Source of the DNA: Romeriopsis navalis LEGE 11480
Lineage (GTDB): Bacteria > Cyanobacteriota > Cyanobacteriia > Leptolyngbyales > Leptolyngbyaceae
Reading direction: 5' to 3'
DNA length: 64,000 nt
Assembly: GCF_015207035.1 (NCBI RefSeq)
Contig: NZ_JADEXQ010000018.1
Span: 1-64,000, forward strand
A program made the position numbers and the translations under genes. This document shows, one piece after another, positions 3,438 to 35,695 of the stretch; positions within the stretch are counted from its first letter, which is position 1; every line of letters begins with the position of its first letter. Under the pieces are notes generated by a model. That model was not told the origin of the DNA. It searched no databases and was given only the letters and a program-made list of their open reading frames with translations.

Positions 3438-3821
3438 TCAAGGTTGGTGACAGCGGTGTATGCCCAGGGACGGGTGACCGGTACAACAAACAAGGAACAG
3501 GTCGACACCAATATCGAGCTGGGAAAGGCTCGATGATTCACCAAAGATTTGACGTTGTGTTTCCACGGTATTACAGATAATCCGCAGGGTTTTTTCCTTA
3601 ACTTCCAGCTGAATATCGCCAAGTTGCCAGCCAGGAAAATTATTGCTGAGAAATTCGCGGAGAACGTGGGTGATTAGCATAAAGTGATGACTTGAAATGA
3701 AGTGATTACCTGGTTGGAGCCAAGTTGAAGTCGGTAATTGCAATAAATAAAGCCGAAAATGTCGCTTCGCAGTACTCGAATGCGAGATCGTCTGAGTAAA
3801 GATACCGCAGCTCTGATTCAC
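3438..3821 (-). CDS. Hypothetical protein, doubtful
   Basis: A 127-codon reading frame with no recognised family. The central part (MLITHVLREFLSNNFPGWQLGD..., then a beta-like LEVKEKTLRII stretch) looks protein-like, but the N-terminus is low-complexity in character and no ribosome site is evident. It could be a decayed fragment. The 414 bases downstream of it toward the FHA gene hold no gene. Confidence 0.25.
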   Translation of the reverse strand: MNQSCGIFTQTISHSSTAKRHFRLYLLQLPTSTWLQPGNHFISSHHFMLITHVLREFLSNNFPGWQLGDIQLEVKEKTLRIICNTVETQRQIFGESSSLSQLDIGVDLFLVCCTGHPSLGIHRCHQP

Positions 3822-23710: not shown

Positions 23711-23862
23711 AACACAAACAGCGGCTCCGTGCCCTCAATTAAGAAGCCTACATACTGGACAAGGTCGCAAGACTGAGTAGGTTCGATTCCTATAACCTCC
23801 GCCAAACTCTGGAGGTTTATAAACAGCTTCTTTAACTCGCATGGAGTTCCCAATCTTGTGTT
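23711..23862 (+). ncRNA. Ro/Y-like structured RNA A, with T-arm/acceptor mini-helix module
   Basis: Framed by AACACAA/TTGTGTT and GCTCCGTGC/GCATGGAGT (two wobble pairs), then inner stem AAGAAGC/GCTTCTT, with the shared internal loop CTACATACT. The enclosed module has a T-arm (GTAGG TTCGATT CCTAT) followed by ACCTCC and then GGAGGT, so the acceptor helix is closed as a hairpin in permuted order. No complete D-arm was seen. The 3' flank GTTCCCAATCTTG matches the other copies. It is embedded between tRNA-Trp and tRNA-Glu. Helices were inferred by hand. Confidence 0.65.
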
Positions 23863-26362: not shown

Positions 26363-26597
26363 TTCGATCGTGTCTGATTCGTAGCCCAACTGCTAGAGTC
26401 TACATACATCAGTACGAGAGGAACAGTACCGTCATCCCAGCTATGACGGGCGTGAAGCAAAGAAAGTACGCAGAACCCAGGAGGTCGGCTTAGAAGTAGC
26501 CATCCTTTAAAGAAAGTGTGATAACTCACTGGCGGAGTGCTTTCCAAGTGACGAACGCTATGCTCTAACGACTCTTACGTCAAGAGGCACGATCGAA
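26363..26597 (+). ncRNA. Ro/Y-like structured RNA B, carrying 23S sarcin-ricin and GTPase-centre mimics
   Basis: Outer helix TTCGATCGTG/CACGATCGAA (10 pairs) plus CGTA/TACG, inner stem GAGTC/GACTC, and the shared TCTACATAC internal loop. The module holds AGTACGAGAGGA (26411-26422), the universal sarcin-ricin loop 12-mer, then a hairpin CCGTCAT/ATGACGG. Next comes 26477-26532, which aligns almost throughout with the 58-nt L11-binding domain of 23S rRNA (E. coli 1051-1108), including GGCTTAGAAGTAGCCATC and TTTAAAGAAAG. The bases beside the sarcin-ricin 12-mer do not restore the H95 stem. In real 23S these two elements lie about 1.6 kb apart and in the opposite order. Confidence 0.8.
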
Positions 26598-27185: not shown

Positions 27186-27317
27186 TGAGTTTCGTCAAAC
27201 TTCCCGGCGAAACTTCTGAACGGCGATCGTTGGCAACAACAACGCAATTACTGCATAAGCTCCAACGACCCGGCGTTAATCCTTTGTACACCTTTACTTG
27301 ATTTTTTGGTGCGAGCC

Positions 27318-27956
27318 ATGACCACTCGTCAAATGTTCAACTCTAAACAGCAACCAGGGCATTTCGACTACACGCTGCGTAAGCAAACTGGTGGTCCTGG
27401 TCAGTACGCACGGGTAGTTGGCTACCTGGAAGCCTGCAATGAATTCTTTGCATTTGATAACCAAATCACTGGCGGTGCAATTCCGACGGAATATATCAAA
27501 GCCTGTGAACAAGGTTTCAAAGATGCAACCAGCTCTGGTATCCTCGCGGGCTATCCCGTCACTGGTGTCAAAGTTGTGCTTACCGATGGTGACTTCCATC
27601 AAAACGATTCGAACGATCGAGCTTTCCAGTTTGCTGCTTGCCAAGGTTTTTACCAAGGTATGAGCACAGCGGATGCCGTGATTATCGAACCGATTATGGA
27701 TGTTGTCGTGACAATTCCCACCGCCTGCATCGGAGCCGTACAAGTCAACCTGATGGCACGGCGGGGGATTCTCCAAGACATCCGCACAGAGCACAACCAC
27801 ACCGAACTTAAAGTGCAGGTGCCGCTCTCGGAAATGTTTGGCTATGCGACTCAGCTACGATCGCTCACATCGGGTCAAGGCACATTCTCCATGACCCCAC
27901 GGGATTACCAACCGGTACCCGAAAGCGTGCAGCGTAGTCTGATCGCTAGTGCCTAA
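27318..27956 (+). CDS. Stand-alone EF-G domain IV-V protein
   Basis: 212 residues from ATG 27318 (TTG 27306 and GTG 27309 are alternatives). The sequence matches elongation factor G domains IV and V: RKQTGGPGQYARVVGY, the GGAIPTEYIKACEQGFKDA block, AGYPVTGVKVVLTDGDFH, IIEPIMDVVVTIP and VPLSEMFGYATQLRSLTSGQGTFSM. Domains I-III, including the GTPase, are absent, so it is not a factor on its own. In intact EF-G, domain IV enters the decoding site and domain V touches the GTPase-associated centre. It sits inside the tRNA array, next to RNAs that mimic those rRNA sites. The domain boundaries are clean and the frame intact, arguing against a decayed gene. Confidence 0.88.
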   Translation: MTTRQMFNSKQQPGHFDYTLRKQTGGPGQYARVVGYLEACNEFFAFDNQITGGAIPTEYIKACEQGFKDATSSGILAGYPVTGVKVVLTDGDFHQNDSNDRAFQFAACQGFYQGMSTADAVIIEPIMDVVVTIPTACIGAVQVNLMARRGILQDIRTEHNHTELKVQVPLSEMFGYATQLRSLTSGQGTFSMTPRDYQPVPESVQRSLIASA

Positions 27957-28116: not shown

Positions 28117-28268
28117 CGCTCCGCGACCCAACCGGTGAAGCTTACATACTTAAGGTTAACCAAACGGACGCAGGTTCAAATCCTGCCAGACCCACTTGCT
28201 TGGGTCTGTAGCTCAGGGGTAGAGCATTTGGATAGTAAAACATAGCTTTTCTAACTCGCGCGGAGTTT
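28117..28268 (+). ncRNA. Ro/Y-like structured RNA C, carrying a circularly permuted tRNA
   Basis: Outer helix CTCCGCG/CGCGGAG, inner GAAGCT/AGCTTT-type stem, internal loop TTACATACT. The module runs CCAAA, T-arm GCAGG TTCAAAT CCTGC, CAGACCCA, six-base loop, TGGGTCTG, D-arm GCTC/GAGC, TTTGG. All four tRNA helices form, but the 3' half comes first: the acceptor is closed by a short loop and the anticodon loop is open and grafted on the framing stem. Bacterial YrlA Y RNAs use this same topology. It lies directly after tRNA-Ser(GGA), and the next gene's ribosome site follows it. Confidence 0.82.
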
Positions 28269-30985: not shown

Positions 30986-31741
30986 ATGAGTGAACATCGT
31001 CTCGACGAAATCCTGATCGAACGACCGCGATCGGGCATGAAAATCAGTTCGCGGAAAATCCCAGGCAACAAAAAGTTCCTATATCAGCTCACCCGGGAGG
31101 CTACCGATCATGGGCTATTACAGCCCCACATTATCAAGGTCCGCGATGGCACGAAATATCTCAGCGATAATCTCGCGCCCCTGCGACGTTACCTGCGATC
31201 AAAAGTTGGGCAAAAATGGGACGACATTTACAGTGAGCTAAACCAACGGCTCGATCGTTCCACCATTAGCGGCCAACATGTTTTCGACCACCTGTGGTAT
31301 TACGTCACACGAGAAGTCGAAATGATTGATGGTTTACCTTATCAGAAGCCCAGTGAGAATTGCTGGACGTACCAACTGCTAGTCAGCCGGTATTATCCAC
31401 AGTTCTATGTGCATCCAGAAACCGGAATTCTGACTCTCGCTCCGCGTGGCAGTCGGATTCAAGTTCGTATCGTTCCAACCTGGTGGCATCAGCCAAAAGG
31501 CGAGGTGCGATGGGTGAATAAATACCACCAGTATCACTGTCTCGACGGTATCTGGTATAGCATTCGATTTAGCGACTTCAATTGCACAATCACCCACTGG
31601 GATGTCTTGCTCAAAGCCGAACTTTCGCGCCAAGATTCATTGCAGCGCTATGGTTACGCAATTTACGCCGATCGTAAGCAGCAATGCAGCAAACGCGATC
31701 TCAAGCGACTGAAACTCCGAGTTGATTCGCCTTCCGGTTAA
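30986..31741 (+). CDS. Unrecognised protein in the RNA-repair cluster
   Basis: 251 residues, soluble, basic, Trp/Tyr/Arg-rich. The middle holds LAPLRRYLRSKVGQKWDDIY then SELNQRLDRSTISGQHVFDH, a patterned segment I believe recurs in hypothetical proteins of other bacteria, then several WYY/WWHQP aromatic stretches and a basic C-terminus. No enzyme motif is named. Its place between RlaP genes and the Y-like RNAs suggests an RNA-binding or repair accessory role. Confidence 0.6.
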   Translation: MSEHRLDEILIERPRSGMKISSRKIPGNKKFLYQLTREATDHGLLQPHIIKVRDGTKYLSDNLAPLRRYLRSKVGQKWDDIYSELNQRLDRSTISGQHVFDHLWYYVTREVEMIDGLPYQKPSENCWTYQLLVSRYYPQFYVHPETGILTLAPRGSRIQVRIVPTWWHQPKGEVRWVNKYHQYHCLDGIWYSIRFSDFNCTITHWDVLLKAELSRQDSLQRYGYAIYADRKQQCSKRDLKRLKLRVDSPSG

Positions 31742-31969
31742 TTTACCTTCGAGCTAATTTATCTTCGAGTCATGCAGTACGAGATTCATCGCAAACAATC
31801 TCCGCCATTTGGCAGATACACATCCCAATCCCAATTCGCTAGATTAGAACCATGAAAGACACAAGCAACAGCGGGCGAGTTAACCGCACAATTTAAACTA
31901 GCCATCTAGTTGAAGCTATCTAGCTTCCCAATGTGATCCAGCGCGTGACACATTCCTAAAACAGCATTT
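31742..31969. other. Short gap before RNA D
   Basis: A TTTATCTTCGAG-type near repeat sits just after the stop codon of the preceding gene. Nothing else was recognised. Confidence 0.35.
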
Positions 31970-32095
31970 CACTTCGTAACCCAACGTAAAAAGCTTACAT
32001 ACCTGCCTATTGGTTAGGCATTTGACTCCAGATCAAACCATAGTGAGTTCGATTCTCACGTATGAACCAACAGCTTTTTCAACTTGTACGAAGTG
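31970..32095 (+). ncRNA. Ro/Y-like structured RNA D, carrying a tRNA-Trp-like body
   Basis: Outer helix CACTTCGTA/TACGAAGTG (9 perfect pairs), inner stem AAAAAGCT/AGCTTTTT, internal loop TTACATACC. Inside is a tRNA-like body in normal order: D-arm GCCT ATTGGTT AGGC, anticodon stem TTTGA/TCAAA with loop CTCCAGA (CCA), T-arm GTGAG TTCGATT CTCAC, then GTATGAACCA. Its acceptor would be CATAC/GTATG, using the conserved TACATAC element itself. The 3' flank is ACTCCCAATTTG, as in other copies. Confidence 0.75.
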
Positions 32096-32106
32096 ACTCC
32101 CAATTT

Positions 32107-32220
32107 GCCGTATCCTAAGCGTTTAGGCATACATACTTAGCCAAAACCGGTGCATGTTGAAGTGACATGATGCAAGCCTGAGCCATTAATCGCAGGCATT
32201 GCCTAACGTACTCATACGGC
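32107..32220 (+). ncRNA. Ro/Y-like structured RNA E, unidentified module
   Basis: Outer helix GCCGTAT/ATACGGC, inner stem TTAGGC/GCCTAA, internal loop ATACATACT. The module folds into two hairpins (GCATGT...ACATGATGC and GCCTG/CAGGC). I do not recognise a tRNA or rRNA counterpart. The 3' flank AACTCCAAATTTTC matches copies A, C and D. It begins 12 bases after D. Confidence 0.65.
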
Positions 32221-32301
32221 AACTCCAAATTTTCTCACGGCTCACAAATAACTGCATAAGTTCATCGGGCCATAAGTTATATCGCAAAGCAGAAGAGGTA
32301 G

Positions 32302-32508
<207 letters not shown>

Positions 32509-32529
32509 GCGGCAGCAGCCGAATATCTA

Positions 32530-32735
32530 ACTTCGTGCCCCAACCCCAAAAGCCTACATACTCTAAGATAACGGTCCTAAGGTAGCGAAACTCAGGCAAC
32601 TGAGCCAGCGATAGTTCAAAGCATCTCCTGTAGATAATTTGAACGTGCCCACTGCTAAAGACGTGTTTGCAAAAACAGACTTTTAGTAAGAGCGGCCGTA
32701 AAAGTACCAAACCGCTTTTGAGACTTGCACGAAGT
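32530..32735 (+). ncRNA. Ro/Y-like structured RNA F, carrying a permuted 23S H68-H71 mimic
   Basis: Outer helix ACTTCGTGC/GCACGAAGT, inner stem AAAAGC/GCTTTT, internal loop CTACATACT. The 5' part of the module (32568-32590) contains ACGGTCCTAAGGTAGCGAAA, near-invariant 23S domain IV sequence (3' strand of H69 through H71). The 3' part has GCCCACTGCTAAAG...TTTTAGTAAGAGCGGCCGTAA, matching H68 and the 5' strand of H69. GGCCGT and ACGGTC re-form H69. So the block is circularly permuted: cut in the H69 loop, which is joined to the framing stem. Extra hairpins (CTCAG/CTGAG; GTTCAAA/TTTGAAC) fill the middle. Confidence 0.8.
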
Positions 32736-32797
32736 GTTTACCTTTCGCTCATGCAGCGCTGTTAGCGCATGTAGCATTCAGATTTTTTACAATTAAC

Positions 32798-34605
<1,808 letters not shown>

Positions 34606-34813: not shown

Positions 34814-35695
34814 ATGTCCGCGATCAATCAGCTACTTCAATCCTTAGCCAAGCAAGAAAACCAACTCCAAAATACTCAGTTCCTTGCTCCCTGCGTCAAA
34901 AGCGGATATATCCGCACAAGGATTCAGGGAATGGTTTATGGCTTTACACCAGAGCCAAAAGACTTTGAAGGCTGGGGGATTTTTCAGCCTGCGGATACCC
35001 AGTCGGCAACCCTGATCGAGTCAGCCGAGATCTGGCAAATCGATGAATACCTGCAAGCACTTCCAGCAATTCGAGTCCGCTTAGTTTACCAACTGCAAAA
35101 TCAAACTTGGCTCGCCTATCCAATTAATGAAGCTGATATGCGTCAGCGATTTGGTACGGCACGCCCGATCGTCATACATCTAGTTTCTGAAGGTACAGCC
35201 TTTGATGCCATCATCGTGCGTTGCCTCGGTGCAGCATTTTACTTTGAGATGCGCGATCGTAAAGCCGACCCAGAACCAGCGGAACAACTGCAAACAAATC
35301 TTCAGCAACTAACCCCAATCGCTGATTTATGCTTCTCGGGCCTCACCCCTGAAATGCGAACCACCTATGAGCTTGTCGCAAGACAGACAGAAGAATTTCC
35401 ACTGCCAGCGAGAACCAATCATCCTGCTCCAAGTACGAATCCTCGGCCAGTTCGCCACGACGAAAAACGGTTACGGGATGCACTATTGACCGGTGGTGGT
35501 TTCCTCGATCGATACGAAGATCGCGGTGACTACTGGACAGTCGAATGGCGGACCAGCGACGGTGAAGCCCATACTAGTGCCATCGCCAAACGCGATCTAA
35601 CTGTTGTCACCGCTGGAATTTGTTTAGACGGCTTCGACGAAAATTTCGACCTGCAATCGTTGGTTGGCGTCGTCGAACAGCAATGGGATGACTAA
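34814..35695 (+). CDS. Unrecognised protein between Ro and E1-like genes
   Basis: 293 residues, soluble, not recognised. The N-terminal half is beta-rich (GYIRTRIQGMVYGFTPEPK, WGIFQPAD). A Pro-rich linker near residues 195-215 separates a C-terminal part with LRDALLTGGGFLDRYEDRGD then YWTVEWRTSDG and an acidic tail QQWDD. It is 40 bases ahead of the E1-like gene, in the same direction. By position it may be a conjugation target, adaptor or E2 replacement; no cysteine motif supports the last. Confidence 0.55.
   Translation: MSAINQLLQSLAKQENQLQNTQFLAPCVKSGYIRTRIQGMVYGFTPEPKDFEGWGIFQPADTQSATLIESAEIWQIDEYLQALPAIRVRLVYQLQNQTWLAYPINEADMRQRFGTARPIVIHLVSEGTAFDAIIVRCLGAAFYFEMRDRKADPEPAEQLQTNLQQLTPIADLCFSGLTPEMRTTYELVARQTEEFPLPARTNHPAPSTNPRPVRHDEKRLRDALLTGGGFLDRYEDRGDYWTVEWRTSDGEAHTSAIAKRDLTVVTAGICLDGFDENFDLQSLVGVVEQQWDD

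Follow-up and report, generated by a model that had tools for sequence, protein, structure and literature searches.

A predicted Y-like RNA of Romeriopsis navalis carries a circularly permuted core of 23S rRNA domain IV beside a Ro60-type gene

Bacterial Y RNAs are already known as mimics of tRNA, and Ro60 has previously been linked to 23S maturation and to misfolded 5S rRNA. The best described case is YrlA of Salmonella and other bacteria, in which a basal stem for Rsr/Ro60 bears an effector domain that imitates an RNA of translation; the RNA is encoded next to rsr, in an operon for RNA repair (PMC8394870, PMC7790460). YrlA, which resembles tRNA, is acted on by the tRNA-modifying enzymes DusA and TruB (PMC8394870) and was suggested to inhibit an anticodon nuclease competitively (PMC7790460). 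A bacterial Y RNA also tethers Rsr to PNPase (PMC8394870), the architecture of the Deinococcus machine RYPER (Rsr-Y RNA-PNPase), for which imitation of rRNA has not been reported. In Anabaena, TrcR controls a tRNA operon and also represses rtcB; antibiotics that target translation induce the operon (PMC10272220).

We analysed 64,000 nucleotides of Romeriopsis navalis LEGE 11480 (GCF_015207035.1, contig NZ_JADEXQ010000018.1, positions 1 to 64,000 of the forward strand), a stretch referred to here as the window. Like YrlA, the RNA gene at 32530-32735 appears to join a Y RNA-type basal stem to a domain that imitates translation RNA, and it sits likewise beside a gene for a Ro60-fold protein, ending 223 bases upstream of its start. 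Where YrlA copies the D, T and acceptor arms of tRNA, however, this RNA copies domain IV of 23S rRNA. The tRNA-like effector domain of the YrlA subclass is absent, there being no Rfam tRNA match at 32530-32735; indeed Rfam 15 gave no family in this interval even at E up to 5. From sequence comparison we regard it as close to certain that the gene encodes a Y-like RNA whose insert is a circularly permuted H67-H68-H69-H70-H71 core of domain IV. Junction sequence and helix topology are shared with 23S domain IV; the mimic differs in being permuted, in having lost the H69 loop, in the sealing of H67, in the shortening of H68 and H71 and in its Y-stem frame.

The segments are not collinear with 23S. 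There the order is H67-5′, H68, H69-5′, loop, H69-3′, H70, H71 and H67-3′, whereas in the window H69-3′, H70 and an H71-like hairpin precede a second hairpin, H68-5′, a shortened H68 and finally H68-3′/H69-5′. The mimic is thus opened at the H69 loop, which is the point of entry of the Y stem, and the H67 end is sealed by a hairpin. ATAACGGTCCTAAGGTAGCGAAA (32568-32590) matches the genome's own 23S (contig C191, 5.4 kb) exactly over 23 nt, and its core, GGTCCTAAGGTAGCGAAA, occurs at only two sites in the 6.47-Mb assembly with at most one mismatch, namely the mimic and the 23S gene. On the other side, GCGGCCGTAA at 32692-32701 lies within GTAAGAGCGGCCGTAA and has GGTGAACGGCGGCCGTAA as its 23S counterpart; ACGGTC (32571-32576) is able to pair with GGCCGT (32694-32699). 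An earlier note, made from the letters of this DNA, had described a mimic of H68-H71. The core is there, but the imitation is larger, and two parts of it had been overlooked: the basal strand TGCCCACTGC (32646-32655), counterpart of the 23S H68 5′ strand TGCCCAGTGC, and the hairpin GTTCAAA...TTTGAAC (32614-32644), which caps H67 in the place of 23S GGCGT/GACGCC. The window copy lacks the UUCCU stretch following H70.

Table 1. Features of the domain IV mimic, its neighbours and the other Y-like RNAs of the window
Feature	Position	Strand	Basis
Y-like RNA, T arm and capped acceptor-like stem	23723..23848	+	Frame catalogue
Y-like RNA, sarcin-ricin loop (SRL, 26411-26422) and GTPase-associated centre (GAC, 26462-26544)	26367..26595	+	Rfam LSU, 61.6 bits; frame, homologs
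Y-like RNA, tRNA opened at anticodon loop, acceptor stem sealed	28118..28266	+	Sequence; frame catalogue
Y-like RNA, linear tRNA mimic	31969..32096	+	Rfam tRNA, 37.2 bits; frame
66-aa ORF just upstream of mimic	32308..32508	+	tblastn: most cyanobacterial loci and planctomycete locus
Outer Y stem, 5′ strand	32530..32538	+	9-bp perfect stem with 32727-32735; frame shared by other window Y-like RNAs and relatives
Inner frame AAAGCCTACATAC	32549..32561	+	AAAGC pairs with GCTTT 32714-32718; TAC 32559-32561 pairs with GTA 32704-32706
H69 3′ strand ACGGTC	32571..32576	+	Identical to 23S; covarying pairs
H70 segment CTAAGGTAGCGAAA	32577..32590	+	Homologs: CUAA invariant, GGU in 29-30 of 30; bases outside search pattern
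H71-like hairpin CTCAG-GCAA-CTGAG, GNRA loop	32591..32604	+	Both-sided changes at 5 of 5 pairs; 98% of cells paired
Junction CCAGCGATA, equivalent of 23S GCACGAA	32605..32613	+	Most homologs AGCGA-like
H67-sealing hairpin GTTCAAA...TTTGAAC	32614..32644	+	27 of 30 homologs form a closing stem of 4 bp or more, register mostly equal
H68 5′ basal strand TGCCCACTGC	32646..32655	+	9 of 10 identical to own 23S; CTGC invariant
Shortened H68 hairpin	32656..32685	+	Predicted stem with both-sided changes
H68 3′ strand and H69 5′ strand GTAAGAGCGGCCGT	32686..32699	+	R1 alignment; covariation
Outer Y stem, 3′ strand	32727..32735	+	ACTTG motif just before
Short Y-like RNA	32804..32882	+	Frame
Divergent Ro60/Rsr-type protein, 548 aa	32959..34605	+	Foldseek on predicted model

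The mimic shares its basal stem with five other Y-like RNAs of the window. In the window and in relatives the frame reads CGUGCCCCAAC ... AACUUGCACG, with an inner AAAGC ... GCUUU and then UACAUAC. Its consensus on the Y-like RNAs, CGYRCCCYAAC ... TACATAC ... AACTTGYACG, agrees with what is expected of Y RNAs, a basal stem whose conserved internal loop is common to the Y RNAs of a locus, and the ACUUG element is reminiscent of vertebrate Y RNAs. Both-sided changes are observed in the inner frame of the mimic in four of the five AAAGC/GCTTT pairs and two of the three TAC/GTA pairs.

The permuted block was aligned to 23S, as the earlier note had suggested, using a covariance model (R1) built only from six real 23S segments, one from this genome and five from other bacteria. 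These were cut in the H69 loop, the H67 ends were joined by GAAA, and the helices H67, H68 base, H69 and H71 were specified. R1 gave a single match in the 64-kb window, at 32568-32703, spanning the full length of the model (32.2 bits, E = 2.8e-7); it also matches the three homologs first found and most of the remainder. This alignment, together with the order of the elements, bears out the proposal that the interval holds a circularly permuted domain IV with the H69 loop opened and the framing stem in its place. When 32591-32735 was shuffled 5000 times preserving dinucleotides, the H68/H69-5′ strand was equalled in 11 cases, the H68-5′ strand in 180 and both together in none. At the H67 position 23S reads ACGAA-a-GGCGU...GACGCC-UGCCC and the mimics GCGAA-GCAUG...CGUGC-GUGCCC. 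The sealing stem averages 4.9 bp in the 30 homologs and 3.8 bp in mononucleotide shuffles; since 52% of shuffle trials attain 4 bp with any register allowed, the sealing hairpin is supportive but not decisive. We note that its apical UCUC-YYGY-AGA (window 32623-32635) is kept in most homologs, Myxococcus included, and is not explained by 23S. Folded by itself to minimum free energy, the window copy does not form H69, while RNAalifold on an alignment of 30 sequences predicts H69, H71 and H68; H69 of the window copy is thus a prediction from comparative evidence.

The same RNA was located upstream of Ro60-type genes in the relatives G031, G009 and G241, and was found in G023 too. The own sequence and those of G031, G241 and G009 were combined in a second model (R2). 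Scanning 84,980 species genomes with the pattern GCCCRCTGCN{5,35}GTAAGAGCGRNCG returned 48 stretches, 27 of which R2 confirmed (E < 1e-6): 21 from cyanobacteria (many Nostoc, Fischerella muscicola, Calothrix, Rivularia, Oscillatoria, Anabaena azotica, Alkalinema and others), four from Myxococcales, one from Ktedonospora (Chloroflexota) and one from a Phycisphaeraceae MAG. Adding the own, G241 and G023 sequences to these 27, among which are G009 and G031, gave the set of 30; its 29 homologs fall in four phyla, the cyanobacteria, myxobacteria, Chloroflexota and Planctomycetota. Exactly one copy is present in each of the 19 genomes searched whole. In Archangium (L106 1880-2150) the mimic is away from Ro60 and is framed by a far longer, near-perfect stem than in cyanobacteria.

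Conservation and covariation across the 30 sequences are the strongest evidence for the mimic. Standard pairs fill 95.2% of pair cells (86.8% in shuffles) and 12 pairs show both-sided changes, neither value being reached in 500 shuffles; the alignment was fitted to a model holding the tested pairs and so leans towards them. Portions of the H68 strands and some of the H69-5′ bases were prescribed by the search pattern; it placed no constraint on the H69-3′ strand, on CUAAGGU, on the H71 hairpin or on the frame. H69, H71 and the frame helices all covary. In H69, 97.8% of cells are paired, the fourth pair being GC in 25 sequences, AU in four and UA in one, and the fifth UG in 12, UA in 10 and CG in six. 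The H69 pairing is therefore kept across the permutation; its loss in homologs, named beforehand as the outcome that would speak against the proposal, did not occur among the 30 sequences. The bases equivalent to U1911 and U1917 are nearly invariant (28/30 and 29/30), and the conserved bases sit on the H68/H70/H71 junction side.

The mimic consensus is GCCCACUGC/GUAAGAGCG, that of 23S GCCCAGUGC/GGUGAACGGCG. Having a consensus of their own, the mimics are therefore not fresh 23S copies. A mimic-specific CACU/AAGA internal loop, common to homologs in four phyla, replaces the 23S sequence. The exact 23-nt identity to the own 23S would be accounted for by a pseudogene, a 23S fragment inserted into the island by chance, but we judge this very improbable: the elements stand in permuted order, H67 has been closed again, and the homologs of four phyla have the mimic-specific bases in common and covary. 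The permutation, the homologs and the covariation contradict random insertion, against which the earlier note had also argued. That the mimic is what remains of a mobile element in the H69 region, whether an I-CeuI-type homing site or a group I intron with permuted exons, seems just as hard to credit. The I-CeuI site lies within the very 23S stretch that the mimic copies, yet in the mimic the site is split and its halves stand in reverse order. No intron core or endonuclease was seen beside the mimic, and an intron or homing-endonuclease origin was set aside. At the Rfam gathering score the window and related loci reached only tRNA and LSU families, and the mimic loci of other phyla no family except tRNA. 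Viral contigs scanned for exact patterns yielded 35 stretches and one stretch; the model recognised no genuine copy among them (best E = 0.38), and a phage origin was rejected on these scans; the single viral match to the SRL/GAC pattern has no Y frame on reading. Plasmid and phage BLAST matches are limited to a 26-29-nt stretch of 23S.

The protein encoded downstream of the mimic has no match to Pfam TROVE (PF05731). Its AlphaFold model is of moderate confidence (pLDDT 68.9), and the best 12 Foldseek matches of this model in the PDB are all Ro60/Rsr, with E down to 1.6e-11; the family profile also gives weak matches to two TROVE chains in the PDB. The predicted structure therefore points to a Ro60/TROVE fold, with a TROVE ring and a vWA domain. 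Surveys based on PF05731 undercount bacterial Ro60, since this divergent subfamily escapes that model, and because TROVE misses the subfamily we used the family profile in its stead to find Ro60 genes. The subfamily is present in 12 of 42 genomes of the home family, one match being a broken fragment. The mimic occurs in four of these 12 and in none of the 30 others (Fisher p about 0.004, by hand). A Ro60 homolog is present in each of the eight mimic-bearing genomes tested, Ktedonospora and Myxococcales among them, the Myxococcales protein being a distant and partial match only. The permutation was sought and found beside other TROVE-type genes, for example in G031, G009, G241 and a planctomycete locus; in Myxococcales, Ktedonospora and G023 the mimic is away from the Ro60 gene. 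As judged from sequence, the mimic keeps the company expected of a Y RNA, a genome with a Ro60 ortholog that is usually adjacent. Many cyanobacteria and one planctomycete share the arrangement small ORF, mimic, Ro60. Three conserved proteins of no known family (32308-32508, 30986-31741 and 34814-35695) travel with the mimic and Ro60. Oscillatoria sp. SIO1A7 (G396 contig C172; L144, L151) has two tandem Ro60 homologs, with the mimic about 1 kb upstream of the nearer one.

As to function, the Y-like RNA would present, on a stem of the Ro60-binding type, an effector module made of a permuted and trimmed domain IV core (H67-H71). Permutation would make the H69 stem the entrance from the Y stem and turn the H68/H70/H71 junction outward. 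The module may be recognised by a protein that normally binds the H67-H71 core, such as an rRNA modification, assembly, decay or repair factor, and the RNA would in this way tether or gate that factor at the Ro60 ring. Tethering of Ro60 to a factor able to recognise the domain IV core of 23S is our best guess at the mechanism and a tentative one, drawn by analogy with the Rsr-Y RNA-PNPase machine, whose architecture is our working model, and with YrlA as a DusA and TruB substrate. Taken jointly, identity and tether are judged somewhat probable. The RNA-repair genes near the mimic speak for this explanation: two RlaP, Tpt1/KptA and a poly(A)-polymerase head, with an RNA ligase in relatives. The earlier note had implied relevance of H69 to the A-site tRNA and the decoding site. 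This found no support: the contact is made by the H69 loop, which the mimic lacks. A direct role at the decoding site is unlikely because the H69 tip is missing and the conserved face is the H68/H70/H71 junction.

The main rival is that the module acts as a decoy, luring a ribotoxin or ribosome-targeting antibiotic off 23S much as the adjoining tRNA-like Y RNAs would lure anticodon nucleases. The structures imitated (tRNA, domain IV, SRL and GAC) correspond to sites that toxins and antibiotics are known to attack, antibiotics against translation induce the cyanobacterial tRNA operon (PMC10272220) and YrlA has been cast in a similar inhibitory role (PMC7790460). Nevertheless the tips usually targeted, the H69 and anticodon loops, are precisely what was removed, the conserved bases lie on the junction side and the window copy is without UUCCU; we consider a decoy unlikely. 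A regulator of assembly, in which the RNA titrates a domain IV rRNA-modifying or assembly factor and Ro60 merely stabilises it, would suit the near invariance of the U1911 and U1917 equivalents and the common stress regulon of RsgA and RtcB in Anabaena. It leaves the constant Ro60 frame and the linkage to Ro60 and RNA-repair genes unexplained, and we do not think it probable.

In the RNA at 26367-26595, AGTACGAGAGGA is the sarcin-ricin loop, followed by the GTPase-associated centre inside the Y frame. Five further genomes of 144 searched have this SRL/GAC fusion, with the Y frame in every one, and in five Nostocales loci it stands alongside the H69 mimic. We also noted homologs in at least 10 other genomes, one with up to three copies. 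The tRNA-derived RNA at 28118-28266 follows the same design as the H69 mimic, opened at a loop and sealed at the other end. Because the permuted domain IV design recurs in four phyla, the RNAs that partner Ro60 appear to copy not just tRNAs but pieces of the ribosome too. Beside the tRNA-type and SRL/GAC-type Y-like RNAs of an RNA-repair island, the domain IV mimic may direct Ro60 to damaged or misfolded 23S. It is conceivable, though doubtful, that Ro60 has a matched set of Y RNAs that jointly imitate the A-site environment of the large subunit: tRNA, the domain IV/H69 core, and the GTPase-associated centre with the sarcin-ricin loop. If so, each Y RNA would consist of ribosomal parts permuted or fused onto a Ro60 stem, and the whole would be a system for surveillance or repair of ribosome damage in which rRNA mimicry sets the substrate class.

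Among the papers searched, none deals with rRNA-mimicking Y RNAs; with respect to Chen 2014, Wang 2018 and Sim and Wolin 2018 this is judged from papers citing them. A Y-like RNA of four phyla that imitates a functional core of 23S would make rRNA mimicry a second mode beside tRNA mimicry and would offer a concrete handle on the choice of substrates by Ro60. An rRNA domain that is circularly permuted in nature and under selection would also be useful for work on RNA folding.

Like the trn operon of Anabaena, a long tRNA array of the TrcR regulon, the window has a long tRNA array, which adjoins the Y-like RNA island; the published trcR-box core TACTACACTTGTA (13 bases) does not, however, occur in the window within two mismatches. 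A promoter and terminator scan of 31700-33000 gave nothing above chance. Proteins of the window include an EF-G domain IV-V fragment, the poly(A)-polymerase head, the two RlaP nucleotidyltransferases, ThiF, Tpt1/KptA and Sua5, to which relatives add the RNA ligase. The EF-G fragment (27306-27956) is a standalone domain IV-V protein of 216 aa that lies in the island near the SRL/GAC RNA, and in the relative L039 the island holds an EF-G-like gene of greater length. Further Y-like RNAs in which circular permutation opens a tRNA at the anticodon loop and the acceptor stem is sealed were seen at L050 145-292 and 430-575 and on the minus strand of L096 at 4384 and 3819. At 3447 on the same strand of L096, the insert of a Y-like RNA resembles an anticodon arm with a long variable arm, so that even pieces of tRNA are seemingly displayed.
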